Below, piece after piece: positions 1 to 24,896 of a stretch of DNA of 27,222 bases. Every line of letters begins with the position of its first letter. Within the stretch, counting starts at the first letter, position 1. Under the pieces are notes generated by a model. That model saw only the letters and a list, made by a program, of their open reading frames with translations, was not told the origin of the DNA and ran no database searches. The stretch spans positions 1 through 27,222 of the IMG/VR virus record IMGVR_UViG_3300020158_000013; one strand, 5' to 3'. Both the position numbers and the translations under genes were made by a program. Origin of the DNA: a virus.

Positions 1-144
1 CACTGGCACTGGCACTGGCACTGGCACTGGCACTGGCACTGGCACTGGCACTGGCGACGGTAGTGGTAGCGGTGGTACAGGTGGCGGTGGTACAGGTGGT
101 GGTGGTACAGGTGGCACTGGCACTGGTGGTGGTGGTAAAACGGC
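1..144 (+). repeat. Coding hexanucleotide tandem repeat and Gly-rich low-complexity tract
   Basis: Nine perfect tandem copies of CACTGG occupy bases 1-54 and run off the window edge. They are followed by degenerate GGTGGTACAGGTGG-type units to about base 144. In frame they encode alternating Thr-Gly and then Gly-rich sequence. The unit is six bases, so copy-number change would keep the frame. Confidence 0.95.
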
Positions 145-12012: not shown

Positions 12013-12020
12013 ATTATACA
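12013..12020 (-). promoter_or_regulatory. Promoter-like TGTATAAT element upstream of DUF2815 gene
   Basis: TGTATAAT on the minus strand, lying just after the TAG stop of the 85-residue gene and about 64 bases before the DUF2815 start. No TTGACA-like -35 is seen 16-18 bases upstream. One of five exact copies of this octamer at gene boundaries or ends in the minus arm. Confidence 0.5.
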
Positions 12021-13600: not shown

Positions 13601-13608
13601 ATTATACA
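13601..13608 (-). promoter_or_regulatory. Promoter-like TGTATAAT element upstream of DUF2800 gene
   Basis: TTGTATAATTAG on the minus strand, immediately after the T-run of the terminase small-subunit terminator and about 34 bases before the DUF2800 ATG. The region where a -35 box would lie falls inside the terminator stem and has no TTGACA. Its position between a terminator and a gene start makes a promoter role likely. Confidence 0.65.
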
Positions 13609-13610
13609 AG

Positions 13611-13658: not shown

Positions 13659-14060
13659 TTAGTCTTGCGCTTCTTTTAGCTGCTTAAGAAGATCATTGAC
13701 TGAAGCCTGGAAGTCGATCGTAACTTCTTGTTTTACATCAGCTTTTACATCGTAGCGCTCGCGGTAGTCGTCTGGATACTGCCCTTTTAAGGCCAGTTCA
13801 GCGATACGGCTATTAAACGCTTTGTTTTCTACGTTTGCTAGGATCATGTTCTCCCAATACGCTTGCCCATGGGTTGTGGCAAGGGACATGATTTCGTCAA
13901 AGTTTGGATCTTCTTTTTTAAGACGCGCTGCCGTCGCTTTGCTGATACCTATAGCGGCGTACATGTTCTTTTGTGAACTACCTAATTTACCAAGTTCTAG
14001 CACAACTTTTGCGTGCTCATCGGTAAATTTAAAATCTCTTGGTCTTGGTTTAGCTGCCAT
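13659..14060 (-). CDS. Terminase small subunit-like DNA-packaging protein
   Basis: A 133-residue protein. ATG 14060 has an AGGT site; an upstream GTG in the same frame lies inside a structured element and is less likely. The N-terminal half holds a helix-turn-helix-like segment (SSQKNMYAAIGISKATAARLKKEDP), shown here as adjacent motifs. The middle reads ENKAFNSRIAELALKGQYPDDY, followed by a coiled C-terminal segment (VNDLLKQLKEAQD). The LKGQYPDDYRE pattern with a preceding HTH is typical of phage terminase small subunits, which recognise the packaging site and load the large subunit. No large terminase is present in this window. The gene is insulated by a structured leader upstream and a strong terminator downstream. 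Confidence 0.7.
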   Translation of the reverse strand: MAAKPRPRDFKFTDEHAKVVLELGKLGSSQKNMYAAIGISKATAARLKKEDPNFDEIMSLATTHGQAYWENMILANVENKAFNSRIAELALKGQYPDDYRERYDVKADVKQEVTIDFQASVNDLLKQLKEAQD

Positions 14061-14463: not shown

Positions 14464-14549
14464 GCCGGCTTTCTATGAAGGCGAACCGGCGGCCTTTAGC
14501 TTTATTTACAGCTAATAGGGGATAGGAGCGCTTCCCAGCGTGTCCTATC
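14464..14549 (-). other. Three tandem hairpins in intergenic region
   Basis: In a 150-base gap, three stem-loops occur in tandem: GATAGGA/TCCTATC with an inner CGCT/AGCG (14521-14549), AGCTAA/TTAGCT (14496-14515), and GCCGG/CCGGC (14464-14490). None is followed by a clear T-run on the minus strand. The spacing suggests a structured 5' leader of the 81-residue gene or a processing site. No tRNA fold fits. Confidence 0.4.
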
Positions 14550-14581
14550 TCTAATAATCCGGTTTTTAATTAAAACTTGCC

Positions 14582-14827
14582 CTATTCTTCACCTGGAATA
14601 ATGATCTTTTTGACAGGCGCTTCTTTTCTTTTTTCCTCAGCTTCCATCTGCCTGCGGAACATCGGCATCATATCGTTAACCATCCGTTTAGTCAACGCTT
14701 CTGTTAAAGCGCGGTCTTTCATCTCTTGCAATTCTGAAGCTTTGTGCGTCTTTTCGTCTACTGCTTTTTGGATATCATTACTAAAGCCACGGTGCTTTAG
14801 AAATTGTCTCATAAAGTTATCACTCAT
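14582..14827 (-). CDS. Hypothetical charged helical protein (81 aa)
   Basis: An 81-residue protein starting MSDNFMRQFLKHRGF and ending in VKKIIIPGEE. It is strongly charged, Lys/Glu/Met-rich and predicted almost wholly helical. It overlaps the end of the preceding gene by 8 bases, suggesting coupled translation in the small-gene operon 16193-14582. No family was recognised and no catalytic motif is visible. Confidence 0.7.
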   Translation of the reverse strand: MSDNFMRQFLKHRGFSNDIQKAVDEKTHKASELQEMKDRALTEALTKRMVNDMMPMFRRQMEAEEKRKEAPVKKIIIPGEE

Positions 14828-15700: not shown

Positions 15701-15897
15701 TAGTCGTTTTCCTCTCGAAACTTTGGACTGCGCATGTATCTTAATTCTTTTTCCATGACGTGCATCTCTTCCACGCTATCGCACACCCAAATTCCAAGTA
15801 AATGATCGTATCGTGATGTGTCAATATCTTCTACGCCTGTAATGGTTTCCATTACATAGTTACCTTTATACCGGTGCTCAACTATAAAGTTACTCAT
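15700..15897 (-). CDS. Hypothetical small acidic protein (65 aa)
   Basis: A 65-residue protein beginning MSNFIVEHRYKGNYVME, with a beta-rich first half and a helical acidic C-terminus (CDSVEEMHVMEKELRYM). Its ATG overlaps the stop of the sigma-4-like gene by 4 bases, so the two are probably translated together. No family was recognised. Confidence 0.7.
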   Translation of the reverse strand: MSNFIVEHRYKGNYVMETITGVEDIDTSRYDHLLGIWVCDSVEEMHVMEKELRYMRSPKFREEND

Positions 15898-16193
15898 ATC
15901 TTTAACTCCTCTTTTATTTGTTCAATTGCCTTAGCAAGATGATACCTAAAAAACTTTTCAGATACATGGATTTCTTTGTTGTTTTGACCTGCCAAAAACG
16001 CTTCAACAACAATGCGCTGTTTTTCTGAAAGTTTTCTGTTAATAATTTTCCTAATATCAGTTATATCGTCGTTTGTCCATGGTAGCCAGCCATCGTTTGA
16101 TACGGTTGATGTCTGAGTCTGTATGTCATCTAATTCCAAGGGATCTACTTCCTCATCTGAAAGCCGCGGGTTTGAACATCTAATTTTGTGCAT
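15894..16193 (-). CDS. Stand-alone sigma region 4-like helix-turn-helix protein
   Basis: A 99-residue protein. Residues 1-45 are acidic and probably disordered; residues about 46-99 (RKLSEKQRIVVEAFLAGQ, then KEIHVSEKFFRYHLAKAIEQI) align with the LTxxQRxVxxLxxxGxxxKEIA...VSExTVRxHLxxAxxxL pattern of sigma-70 region 4 and LuxR-type HTHs. Relative to that pattern about five residues are missing between KEI and VSEK, so the first HTH helix is shortened. The gene begins seven bases after a TATAAT hexamer, so mRNA from that element would be leaderless; coupling from the helicase stop nine bases upstream is the alternative. No other sigma domain is present. Because the phage sigma factor at 24327-24896 lacks region 4, this protein could supply it, as in the two-part SigO/RsoA system of Bacillus. 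That pairing is inference. Confidence 0.55.
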   Translation of the reverse strand: MHKIRCSNPRLSDEEVDPLELDDIQTQTSTVSNDGWLPWTNDDITDIRKIINRKLSEKQRIVVEAFLAGQNNKEIHVSEKFFRYHLAKAIEQIKEELKI

Positions 16194-16200
16194 ATATTTA

Positions 16201-16208
16201 ATTATACA
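16201..16208 (-). promoter_or_regulatory. Promoter-like TGTATAAT element before sigma-4-like gene
   Basis: ATCTGTATAATTA on the minus strand, overlapping the end of the helicase gene and 7 bases from the ATG of the sigma-4-like gene. No -35 hexamer is recognised. The flank ATCTGTATAAT is shared exactly with the copy at 26491. Confidence 0.45.
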
Positions 16209-17539
16209 GATTTTAAAGAATCTAGTAGCGCTTCCTGAATGTTTATTTTGCCTTCTAATACTTTGACTACGTGCTCGTCAATGCTATTAGATACTGTTAA
16301 ATGGTGTATAACAACAGGTTTTTCCTGCCCTTGGCGGTAAATACGTGCGTTGGCCTGGATATAGTTCTCTGAGCTCCATGGCAAATCGAACCAGACCGTT
16401 TGTGCTGTGTCACCAGCGTTGCACTGTAGATTAATCCCGATTCCGCCGCTCTGGGGATGGGCAAGGAGCATACGAATCTCGCCACGATTCCACGCTGCAA
16501 TGTTGTTGTCGTCCAAGACCACAGCTTGCGGGAACAAAAGACGTAGCCTATTGAGGCTATGCTTGAAGTGGTAGAAGACAAGCGTTGGTGAGGAAGATTC
16601 CTCCATGATCGACTCAAGGTATTCCAACTTAGCGCGGTGTATTTCTTGCGTTTCTCCATCCGCTCCATAAATTGCGCCCGAGGTGAACTGAAGGAGTTTG
16701 CCCGCCAATGTTGCTGCAGTTGGAGCTGTGATGCGCTCTTTACCGATGTCAGCGACCATGTCTTTTCTAAGTGTGTCATACTTGACCTTTACGTTTTTGT
16801 CCAGTTCAATTTTGTGATATAGCGCTGTAAGCGGCGGCAGCTGCAAGTAATCCTCAGCTTTAAGACTAAAACAAATATCTGAAATTTTGTTTTGTATTGT
16901 AGCATCCGCGCCGTGTTTTAATTTCCATGAATATACCACTCTAGTATGGTAATTAATTTGATCTGGTTGTAAGTATTTATCTCTAAACTTTGTCAGTGTT
17001 GTTTCCAGGCGTTGACCAAGATCCAATATACCTACTTGACTCCACAGATCTGTTAGTCCCTGCGGCGTTGGAGTTCCTGTCAGAATCAGTCTTCGTTTAA
17101 AGTTTTTTAGTTGTTTCTTTAATGCTTTAAAGCGCTTGGTCGATGAATCTTTAAAGCGGCTGCTTTCGTCAATCACTAAGTTCTGAAATTTGTTTTCAAA
17201 ATTGTCTAGCAGCCACACAACGTTTTCAAGGTTTATTAGATAGATATCTGCGTCCGAATTCAAGCCTGACAATCTCTGCATCGGATTGCCCATGATCTTC
17301 GATACGCGTAGGTGCTTGAGATGGTTCCACTTCTGTACTTCCGCTGACCAGACTGTTTCCGCTACCCTTTTTGGAGCAATGATCAGCGTCTTCCCCTCGA
17401 ACTGCTCCGCTATGATCGTCAGTGTCGTCGCTGTCTTCCCAAGTCCAGGGGGTAGAAACAGACCCAAGTTCGGCACCGACTGCGCCTTGGATATAAGATC
17501 CTTCTGGTACTGATGTAGTTGAGCTCTTGCAAACGCCAT
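16202..17539 (-). CDS. SNF2-type DNA helicase/translocase
   Basis: A 445-residue superfamily 2 helicase. Visible motifs in order: QKDLISKA Q-like start, Walker A PPGLGKTATT (about residue 30-37), motif Ia TLIIAPKR, motif II in degenerate form DESS (about 124), motif III LTGTPTP (about 153), and in the second RecA lobe SGGIGINLQ and the motif VI QANARIYRQGQ (about 400). This is the SNF2/RapA arrangement found in phage replication modules beside VRR-NUC, DUF2800 and DUF2815 genes. It probably remodels protein-DNA complexes or supports recombination in concert with the VRR-NUC nuclease. Its start lies inside the C-terminal extension of the VRR-NUC frame (314-base overlap). Confidence 0.93.
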   Translation of the reverse strand: MAFARAQLHQYQKDLISKAQSVPNLGLFLPPGLGKTATTLTIIAEQFEGKTLIIAPKRVAETVWSAEVQKWNHLKHLRVSKIMGNPMQRLSGLNSDADIYLINLENVVWLLDNFENKFQNLVIDESSRFKDSSTKRFKALKKQLKNFKRRLILTGTPTPQGLTDLWSQVGILDLGQRLETTLTKFRDKYLQPDQINYHTRVVYSWKLKHGADATIQNKISDICFSLKAEDYLQLPPLTALYHKIELDKNVKVKYDTLRKDMVADIGKERITAPTAATLAGKLLQFTSGAIYGADGETQEIHRAKLEYLESIMEESSSPTLVFYHFKHSLNRLRLLFPQAVVLDDNNIAAWNRGEIRMLLAHPQSGGIGINLQCNAGDTAQTVWFDLPWSSENYIQANARIYRQGQEKPVVIHHLTVSNSIDEHVVKVLEGKINIQEALLDSLKSV

Positions 17540-23351: not shown

Positions 23352-23359
23352 ATTATACA
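23352..23359 (-). promoter_or_regulatory. Promoter-like TGTATAAT element for nucleotide-metabolism operon
   Basis: TTGTATAATTAGTC on the minus strand, about 20 bases upstream of the 61-residue gene. It shares TTGTATAATTAG with the copy at 13601. No TTGACA -35 is found; instead a perfect 13-bp inverted repeat lies about 30 bases upstream. Confidence 0.65.
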
Positions 23360-23386
23360 ATACTGCTATATAACAAAAAGTAATAA

Positions 23387-23847: not shown

Positions 23848-24035
23848 GCCTGGTACTCCTTTTGTTTTAAAATCCGATAAAACCATTCTCTGAACGCTTC
23901 GCGATTCTCGCTAGTCTGTTCATCGTTTGGATCCCATACTGCTTGAACTACAAACTGCCCTTCTGAATCACGCGCCTCAATGCGGACTAAATCGCCGTTA
24001 TCGTCATATACATCTGTTAATATAAACTTGGTCAT
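23844..24035 (-). CDS. Hypothetical acidic small protein (63 aa)
   Basis: A 63-residue protein; ATG 24035 (MTKFILTDVYDDNGDLVRIE) is preferred over an in-frame start five codons upstream because GGGAGATAAAGAA fits as its ribosome site. It has a beta-rich first half and a helix EAFREWFYRILKQ at the end. It overlaps the next gene by four bases. No family was recognised. Confidence 0.65.
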   Translation of the reverse strand: MTKFILTDVYDDNGDLVRIEARDSEGQFVVQAVWDPNDEQTSENREAFREWFYRILKQKEYQA

Positions 24036-24325
24036 TTCTTTATCTCCCAATTATCTGGTTTACCGTAATCACCCGCTATGGCGCTCATTACGTAACGCTC
24101 TGGTGCTATTTCTAGCCACGCTGCAAATGCTGCCTTATATTCAAGCCATAATTCATTTGGTTCGTACATGGGATGATTTAGACCCGCAACATCAACGCAT
24201 CGCAGCACATCGCTCAATGGAACATGCGGCAGCTTAGCGTTGGTCTTTGTCTTTACTATCTTTACTGTATCTCTGCAGCGGATGAAATGATCGTAAGCTC
24301 GCTTTTGTTTTTCTGTTAATTCCAT
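24032..24325 (-). CDS. Hypothetical helical protein (97 aa)
   Basis: A 97-residue protein from ATG 24325, which has GGAG nearby; the open frame extends eight codons into the sigma gene and that part is disregarded. It is helical (ELTEKQKRAYDHFIRCRDTV) with a WLEYKAAFAAWLE segment in the centre. The gene follows the sigma factor directly and overlaps the next gene by four bases. It is not a sigma region 4: there is no HTH. No family was recognised. Confidence 0.65.
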   Translation of the reverse strand: MELTEKQKRAYDHFIRCRDTVKIVKTKTNAKLPHVPLSDVLRCVDVAGLNHPMYEPNELWLEYKAAFAAWLEIAPERYVMSAIAGDYGKPDNWEIKK

Positions 24326-24326
24326 A

Positions 24327-24896
24327 CTATTCTCCGTCTTCAATTGCATCTAAGTGATCTGTATTCATTGCTTCTAAGGACGATGGTTGTAACTGAATAA
24401 AACTAAGCAACTGACGAATCCGTTTTTGAGTTAACCGAGCAGTTATTGCTACTTCTTCAATCGTTGGTTGACGATTTAATTGTTTGATTAATCGCGTTTC
24501 AGTGTACTTCATCCTTCTAATCTCTTCAATTACGTTTGATGGTAGTCGAATGGTATTGCTATGGTTCTCTGTGTATCTTACAACGGCTCGCTCAATAAAT
24601 GATCTTGCAAAGCCAACAAACTTAATGCCACTCTGAGGCTTCCACTTTCTTGCAGCAAGCAGCATTGCCTCATAGCCGCATGCAATGAAGTCCTCGTAAG
24701 CGATGTTGCTGTACTGCCATTGAGGCATTTTCTTTAAGACATAAGGAATAAATCTCAGGTTATGCTCTACAAGTTCATCTATAGCAAATTCATCTCCGTT
24801 CTGTATTCGTTTTGCAAGTTCAACCTCTTCTTGCTCTGTTAATGGTTCTATATCGTACAACTTCCTTAAAAAACTTGAAAGAGCATTCTGTTCCAT
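24327..24896 (-). CDS. Sigma-70 family factor lacking region 4
   Basis: A 189-residue protein from ATG 24896 (AAGGA site six bases upstream; the upstream in-frame part overlaps the previous gene). Region 1.2 is at residues 6-34 (TEQEEVELAKRIQNGDE), region 2 at 36-110 (NLRFIPYVLKK, EDFIACGYEAML, KFVGFARSFIERAV), and region 3 at 113-172 (IRLPSNVIEEI, NRQPTIEEVA, QLQPSSLEA). It stops shortly after region 3.2, with no region 4. In region 2.3 the Trp-Trp pair that helps melt the -10 is Ser-Phe, and the Gln that contacts position -12 is Arg. In region 3.0 the Arg and Glu that contact extended -10 promoters (R451 and E458 of E. coli) are retained; His455 is Asn. It should direct host RNA polymerase to -10-dependent phage promoters. 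Confidence 0.85.
   Translation of the reverse strand: MEQNALSSFLRKLYDIEPLTEQEEVELAKRIQNGDEFAIDELVEHNLRFIPYVLKKMPQWQYSNIAYEDFIACGYEAMLLAARKWKPQSGIKFVGFARSFIERAVVRYTENHSNTIRLPSNVIEEIRRMKYTETRLIKQLNRQPTIEEVAITARLTQKRIRQLLSFIQLQPSSLEAMNTDHLDAIEDGE

Follow-up and report, generated by a model that had tools for sequence, protein, structure and literature searches.

A sigma factor is normally a single chain, by which both promoter boxes are read. The locus described here encodes a phage sigma-70 factor that ends before region 4, and raises the question of how the promoters of such a phage are recognized. A preliminary description of the locus had proposed that this sigma uses -10-driven promoters, or borrows a region 4 from another protein. 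We analyzed the whole stretch of 27,222 nucleotides (hereafter, the window), a 27-kb fragment identical to the IMG/VR record IMGVR_UViG_3300020158_000013, together with related sequences. The contig starts within a (TG)n/Gly-Thr-rich repeat of a virion-protein-like ORF (window 1-100), which may be the reason why the assembly ends there.

A sigma-70 factor that stops after region 3

The truncated gene and its neighbor are as follows.

24896-24327, (-) strand: sigma core subunit, 189 aa, with sigma-70 regions 1.2, 2, 3.0-3.1 and the start of 3.2, and without region 4
24032..24334, (-) strand: gene following sigma, conserved, function not assigned, not region 4

When the 189-aa protein was compared with Pfam, Sigma70_r1_2 passed the cut-off (1.1e-6), region 3 fell 0.1 bit short of it (1.8e-5; 25.2 vs 25.3 bits), region 2 lay 3.6 bits below it (4.4e-4) and region 4 gave no match. 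The protein matched PHROG 351, 'RNA polymerase sigma factor' (4.6e-26), and aligned with the SigA/RpoD chains of the PDB across regions 1.2-3.2 (best 7.8e-22); its predicted model matched SigA/RpoD chains as well. Regions 1.2, 2 and 3 are present in order, as in members of the sigma-70 family and of PHROG 351. The ORF and its stop, together with the Pfam, PHROG and PDB results, confirmed the earlier statement that the chain stops just past region 3.2, and the HMM search agreed that region 4 is absent from it.

A residue map against E. coli RpoD showed that R441, R451 and E458 are kept, and that W433 is replaced by S, W434 by F, Q437 by R, T440 by V and H455 by N. The retention of R451 and E458 and the change of the Trp pair to Ser-Phe had thus been read correctly. 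In E. coli, Q437H and T440I suppress a C at -12 (PMC2613000); the C at -12 in the promoters described below and the changed residues 437 and 440 agree with these suppressors only in a general way. Residue 440 was considered as the determinant of the -12 base and rejected, since it varies (R, V, E, Q, N, K, L, T) with no clear correspondence.

A scan of IMG/VR with the 189-aa protein and its alignment yielded 55 loci. About 40 homologues, with 37-84% identity, share the end point of the 189-aa protein. Homologues carrying region 4 in the same frame had been named as the finding that would point to a local truncation, and none was present among these close homologues. All of them stop within a few residues of one point, after '(R)EPxSLD...EExxE', with a short acidic tail (EESEE, DAIEDGE) in which no hydrophobic clamp motif was found by eye. 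Because this end point is common to the close homologues, a local truncation, frameshift or sequencing error is excluded as the origin of the short sigma. The only longer homologues, L120 onward, were full-length sigmas of distant relationship, with 26-38% identity in the part that matched. Regions 2 and 3 were matched in 30 of 30 members of the family alignment; one of the 30 also matched Sigma70_r4 (2.1e-4), and its length is too short for a full extra domain.

The gene that follows sigma (24334-24032) had no family match in Pfam or PHROG. Region 4 was therefore ruled out there, and the earlier claim that this gene is not a displaced region 4 holds for it. A region-4-like protein encoded elsewhere in the window (16193-15894) had been missed.

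A 99-aa protein resembling region 4

The region-4-like gene, r4, lies directly downstream of a helicase gene.

15894..16193, (-) strand: r4, 99 aa, 8 kb downstream of sigma, recognized by Foldseek, profile comparison, conservation and co-occurrence
16202..17539, (-) strand: helicase gene of the SNF2 type, immediately preceding r4

The r4 ORF was first picked out by 'LSEKQRIVVEAFLAGQNNKEIHVSEKFFRYHLAKAIEQIKEEL'. Its product has a conserved acidic N-terminus, PRLSDEExDPxE, followed by helices like those of regions 4.1 and 4.2. An IMG/VR scan with a three-member r4 alignment detected 405 related stretches. Among 44 r4 members, PRLSDEExDPxE and K80, R83, Y84 and H85, which align with the recognition helix, were invariant or nearly so. 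One related genome (L073:1043-1357) carries a second, diverged r4-like ORF (105 aa, E 4e-12) beside the standard r4. A tblastn search of 50,697 isolate-phage records with r4 gave no match. Further, neither r4 nor a convincing sigma was present in the searched stretches of a spring podovirus, Variovorax V45iii and KPP23, which were picked by DNA polymerase similarity. A later r4 scan gave one match in a betaproteobacterial metagenome bin, the sole hint of a host for this phage family. Judging from where related isolates and bins were obtained, the family gives the impression of being a freshwater one.

Sequence similarity of r4 to sigma was weak. Pfam Sigma70_r4_2 was matched weakly by 7 of the 44 members (best E 0.006), the GerE match stood at 0.12 and a PDB sequence search gave no significant match. 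The predicted model of r4 had a mean pLDDT of 75, exceeding 90 across much of the C-terminal domain. Among the best 50 PDB matches obtained by Foldseek with this model, sigma factors and region 4 domains made up the majority, ahead of everything else (5fgm, TMt 0.68; 8jzt, 0.75; 2o8x, 0.71; 3vfz, 0.72). Their probabilities reached 0.99, yet no E-value was below 0.13, because the domain is short. The minority consisted mainly of LuxR-type HTH domains (VpsT, RcsB, FixJ), which have the same fold.

Region 4 sequences from ten phage sigmas and six E. coli sigmas served for a profile comparison with r4. The score was 26.2, whereas 150 column-permuted controls reached no more than 18.9 and the reversed profile scored 13.0, and the alignment was in register over 4.1-4.2; hhalign gave a P of 4e-4 with a probability of only 35%. 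The alignment contains a four-residue gap, so that the HTH of r4 is four residues shorter than that of sigma-70 and DNA reading by r4 is therefore not assured. Although the sequence similarity is weak and the LuxR-type HTH shares the fold, the 99-aa protein is very probably a sigma region 4. The earlier suggestion that region 4 is borrowed from another protein thus gained a very probable donor, encoded by the phage itself in the same window.

In a first sample, every one of the 12 records that were 40 kb or longer and had either gene carried both sigma and r4, on the same strand. In relatives r4 sits 6-11 kb downstream of sigma, and it follows the SNF2-type helicase gene in all five that were compared. 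Where a record had only one of the two genes, its partner would fall past the end of the contig or near it. In a second sample, selected by the promoter described below, two records carried both genes (G051, 46 kb; G058, 43 kb), one had r4 only, at its end (G055, 50 kb), and one had neither (G068, 46 kb). Further, r4 was absent from seven of seven searched phage records with one-piece sigmas. Core genes that are linked in a single phage family would co-occur anyway; this pattern is therefore a matter of consistency rather than proof, and the shared inheritance of sigma and r4 is not independent support for their interaction.

Two classes of promoters

Reading the regions upstream of orthologous genes in relatives revealed a common TTTGCATTAGTA; a word-enrichment scan caught part of this motif in one genome only (G010). 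The family promoter consists of AGGGCG, a 17-bp spacer and CATTAG, which we take as the -10 hexamer. In 1.72 Mb of family sequence, GGGC started exactly 22 nt before the core GCAT[TA]AGT[AG] in 59 of 151 sites and at any other distance in at most 3 of 151, these sites coming from related genomes and not being phylogenetically independent events. Columns left free by the search pattern were also conserved: among 49 non-redundant sites, T occurred at -14 in 49, at -16 in 45 and at +1 in 48, A occurred at +2 in 48, and G occurred at each of +3 and +4 in 41. Two-box sites scored up to 48 bits, and the best score in five shuffles was 3-13 depending on the genome. The fourteen loci with one-piece sigmas contained four core sites, none with GGGC.

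The correctly spaced pattern was matched by at least 120 IMG/VR stretches, and a control with the spacing shifted by +4 nt by one. Among the matches listed, 117 of 117 newly found promoter loci matched proteins of this phage family, whereas the shifted control did not. Of the larger records from both spacing scans, shifted control included, 12 of 31 encode sigma and/or r4, and the sigma frames in records from these scans were again 191-198 aa long.

Host-type promoters do not account for these sites: TATAAT and TTGACA were not generally enriched in relatives, CATTAG is a poor sigma-70 -10 element, and GGGCG/CATTAG is unlike TTGACA/TATAAT. When CATTAG and TATAAT are each taken as -10, the conserved TTG (-15TTG-13) lies one base nearer the hexamer than the classical -15TGn-13. 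The proposed use of extended -10 promoters accordingly stands in part: the protein retains R451 and E458, but it has Asn in place of H455, and the TTG is displaced.

The following sites and target gene were located in the window.

14543..14583, (-) strand: late-type promoter AGGGCaag...GGATTATTAGAGATAGGA, with -35 GGGC and -10, upstream of orf14431/terS
13659..14060, (-) strand: terminase small subunit gene (terS), target of the late-type promoter
16201..16208, (-) strand: TGTATAAT, -10-only promoter of r4, within the 3' end of the helicase gene, with the r4 ATG 7 nt past the hexamer
13601..13610, (-) strand: TTGTATAAT, -10-only promoter of an exonuclease-like gene, immediately following a terminator-like GGGGCG...CGCCCC-TTTTT
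23352..23360, (-) strand: TTGTATAAT, -10 element upstream of orf23331
12013..12020, (-) strand: TGTATAAT, candidate -10-only promoter upstream of the SSB gene

The window contains five TGTATAAT sites, vs 0.6 expected. The site at 14583-14543 is its one two-box site (13.4 bits, vs 4.3 for the best in five shuffles) and has orthologues in relatives. The sites before r4, the exonuclease gene and orf23331 have no recognisable -35 box and form a -10-only class. Among the sites found across the family, GGGC accompanied the core before orf14431 (18/18), terS (6/6) and portal (6/6), and was rare or absent before exonuclease (4/29), r4 (0/15) and SSB (0/8) genes; the core is present in 2.2% of random 250-bp stretches. 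Portal, terminase and tail-like genes are preceded by two-box promoters in relatives. The late promoters include a rigidly spaced -35 box, so that these phages do not rely on the -10 element alone. The expectation of -10-driven promoters thus fits r4, SSB and most exonuclease genes, and a purely -10-driven sigma was rejected for the late class.

Where r4 has its own core, an in-frame ATG follows the hexamer by 7-12 nt in 20 of 21 genes, and r4 messages, including that of the window (16208-16191), appear to be leaderless or nearly so. Thirty-four of the 55 r4 orthologues have no recognisable core of their own.

Several exonuclease promoters have a terminator-like hairpin upstream, with its T-run abutting the -10 element. 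In five loci (L037:1807, L072:4352, L075:12830, L099:19608 and L102:19894) the left arm of the hairpin, AGGGC or GGGGC, lies at or adjoins the -35 position, so that one sequence may serve as both terminator and promoter. Among other genes of the family, a late gene (L148:14443-14883) matched a GroES-like co-chaperonin (PHROG 3188). In two relatives, the terminase large subunit gene is preceded by a separate gene (L149:1367-2395 and G001:C1:22828-23838), the product of which matches terminase large subunit PHROGs and begins intein (Hint)-like.

A proposed sigma factor divided between two genes

The domain content, the conserved truncation, the partner gene with its fold match, the co-occurrence, the motif with its rigid spacing and the two gene classes were all obtained by computation. 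With a probability of roughly 0.78, we infer that these phages possess a split sigma encoded by two genes, the parts of which would read the -10 and -35 boxes, respectively. The 189-aa subunit (regions 1.2-3) would bind the host core RNA polymerase, read the -10 element TTG[C/T]AT[T/A]A[G/T/A]T[A/G] and direct the polymerase to TTGCATTAGTA/TGTATAAT promoters. The 99-aa r4 would sit on the beta flap as a separate region 4 and read the -35 element GGGCG, 17 bp upstream of the -10 hexamer. After removal of region 4.2, a strong extended -10 promoter is still transcribed and a -35-dependent one is not, and spacer length is sensed by simultaneous contact of regions 2 and 4 (PMC2613000). A sigma without region 4 is therefore expected to act at -10-only promoters and to depend on r4 at those with two boxes.

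Accordingly, the -10-only promoters (r4, SSB and most exonuclease genes) may fire with the core subunit alone, and the two-box promoters (orf14431, terS, portal and other structural genes) may need both subunits. If so, the arrival of r4 would turn on the late genes, in the order middle to late, and in many members the -10-only promoter of r4 itself would be fired by the sigma without region 4. Such a two-step assembly, in which -10-only firing comes first and r4 then opens the late promoters, is a tentative proposal for the timing of development, to which we give slightly less than even odds. Since most r4 orthologues lack a promoter of their own, this cascade is not universal.

One of the closest precedents is phage T4, whose gp55/gp33 pair has been called a split sigma and in which gp33 fills the sigma4 site without sequence recognition and without sequence similarity to sigma (PMC2988020). 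By analogy, r4 might be a flap-binding co-activator that reads no DNA, with GGGCG read by another phage protein in the manner of MotA. The four-residue deletion in the HTH of r4 would suit such a role. We nevertheless regard it as unlikely: GGGC lies at the exact sigma4 distance, with almost no variation in the 17-bp spacer, r4 aligns with region 4 as gp33 does not, and the residues aligned with the recognition helix are conserved in the 44 sequences. The two systems are alike in having a late sigma without region 4, with the sigma4 position assigned to a second, small protein, and late genes read by the host core polymerase. They differ in that gp55 resembles sigma domain 2 only, whereas regions 1.2-3 are recognisable here, and in that the partner here looks like a true region 4. 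Further, T4 late promoters have no -35 box (PMC7892883) and need the sliding clamp, whereas the late class here has GGGCG at fixed spacing. By the features tested, the phage system works like a split sigma, yet is not of the T4 type.

It is considerably less probable that the sigma functions in the absence of a dedicated region 4, the late promoters being served by host sigma-70 or another activator and r4 being an unrelated LuxR-like regulator. The weak sequence similarity of r4 to sigma, the model matches to VpsT, RcsB and FixJ and the GerE match are what such a regulator would give. Sigma domains nevertheless dominate the structural matches, the profile score exceeds all permuted controls, r4 tracks the truncated sigma and is missing from phages with one-piece sigmas, and the promoter boxes are unlike TTGACA/TATAAT. 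Least probable of all, and very improbable in our view, is that the 189-aa protein is an anti-host decoy or anti-sigma-like regulator instead of a working sigma. Its regions 2 and 3 are strongly diverged, with the Trp pair lost and Pfam region 2 below the cut-off, but contact residues, R441, R451 and E458 among them, have been retained throughout the family, and some protein must read the -10 element that is specific to the family and occurs in two promoter classes.

A sigma split over two genes has a further parallel in SigO-RsoA, the two-subunit sigma of Bacillus subtilis (PMC8103513, PMC10141391). The region-4 part is on SigO and sigma2 on RsoA according to PMC8103513, and PMC10141391 gives the domains reversed. 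There, too, sigma activity is distributed over two proteins, each with part of the promoter-reading or core-binding surface, and regions 2 and 4 are on different chains. The bacterial genes form one operon, whereas the phage genes lie 6-11 kb apart; the phage sigma is cut after region 3, and the phages have two promoter classes. The two systems are likened by description.

One-piece phage sigmas (e.g. L120, L125) share sigma-70 regions 1.2-3 with the truncated protein. They differ in carrying region 4 in frame, in the absence of r4 from the seven searched records, and in the absence of the GGGCG-N17-CATTAG promoter from the 14 scanned loci. In SPO1, late transcription is carried out by a phage sigma together with an accessory phage protein, the gp33/gp34 pairing, and the present system would be similar in that respect. 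The late sigma is gp34 (PMC9429907).

A search of the open-access literature found no report of such a split-sigma arrangement, most subscription journals lying outside that coverage. If the proposal is true, these phages would display a novel type of temporal switch, in which the recognition of a promoter box resides in a subunit that can be separated and regulated. In this large family of uncultured phages, the second part of the sigma appears to be an authentic region 4, and its own -35 box lies at the canonical spacing. What region 4 contributes to the initiating polymerase could be tested directly, by supplying a natural subunit or leaving it out, and the promoter would provide a specific signature for finding and annotating these phages.
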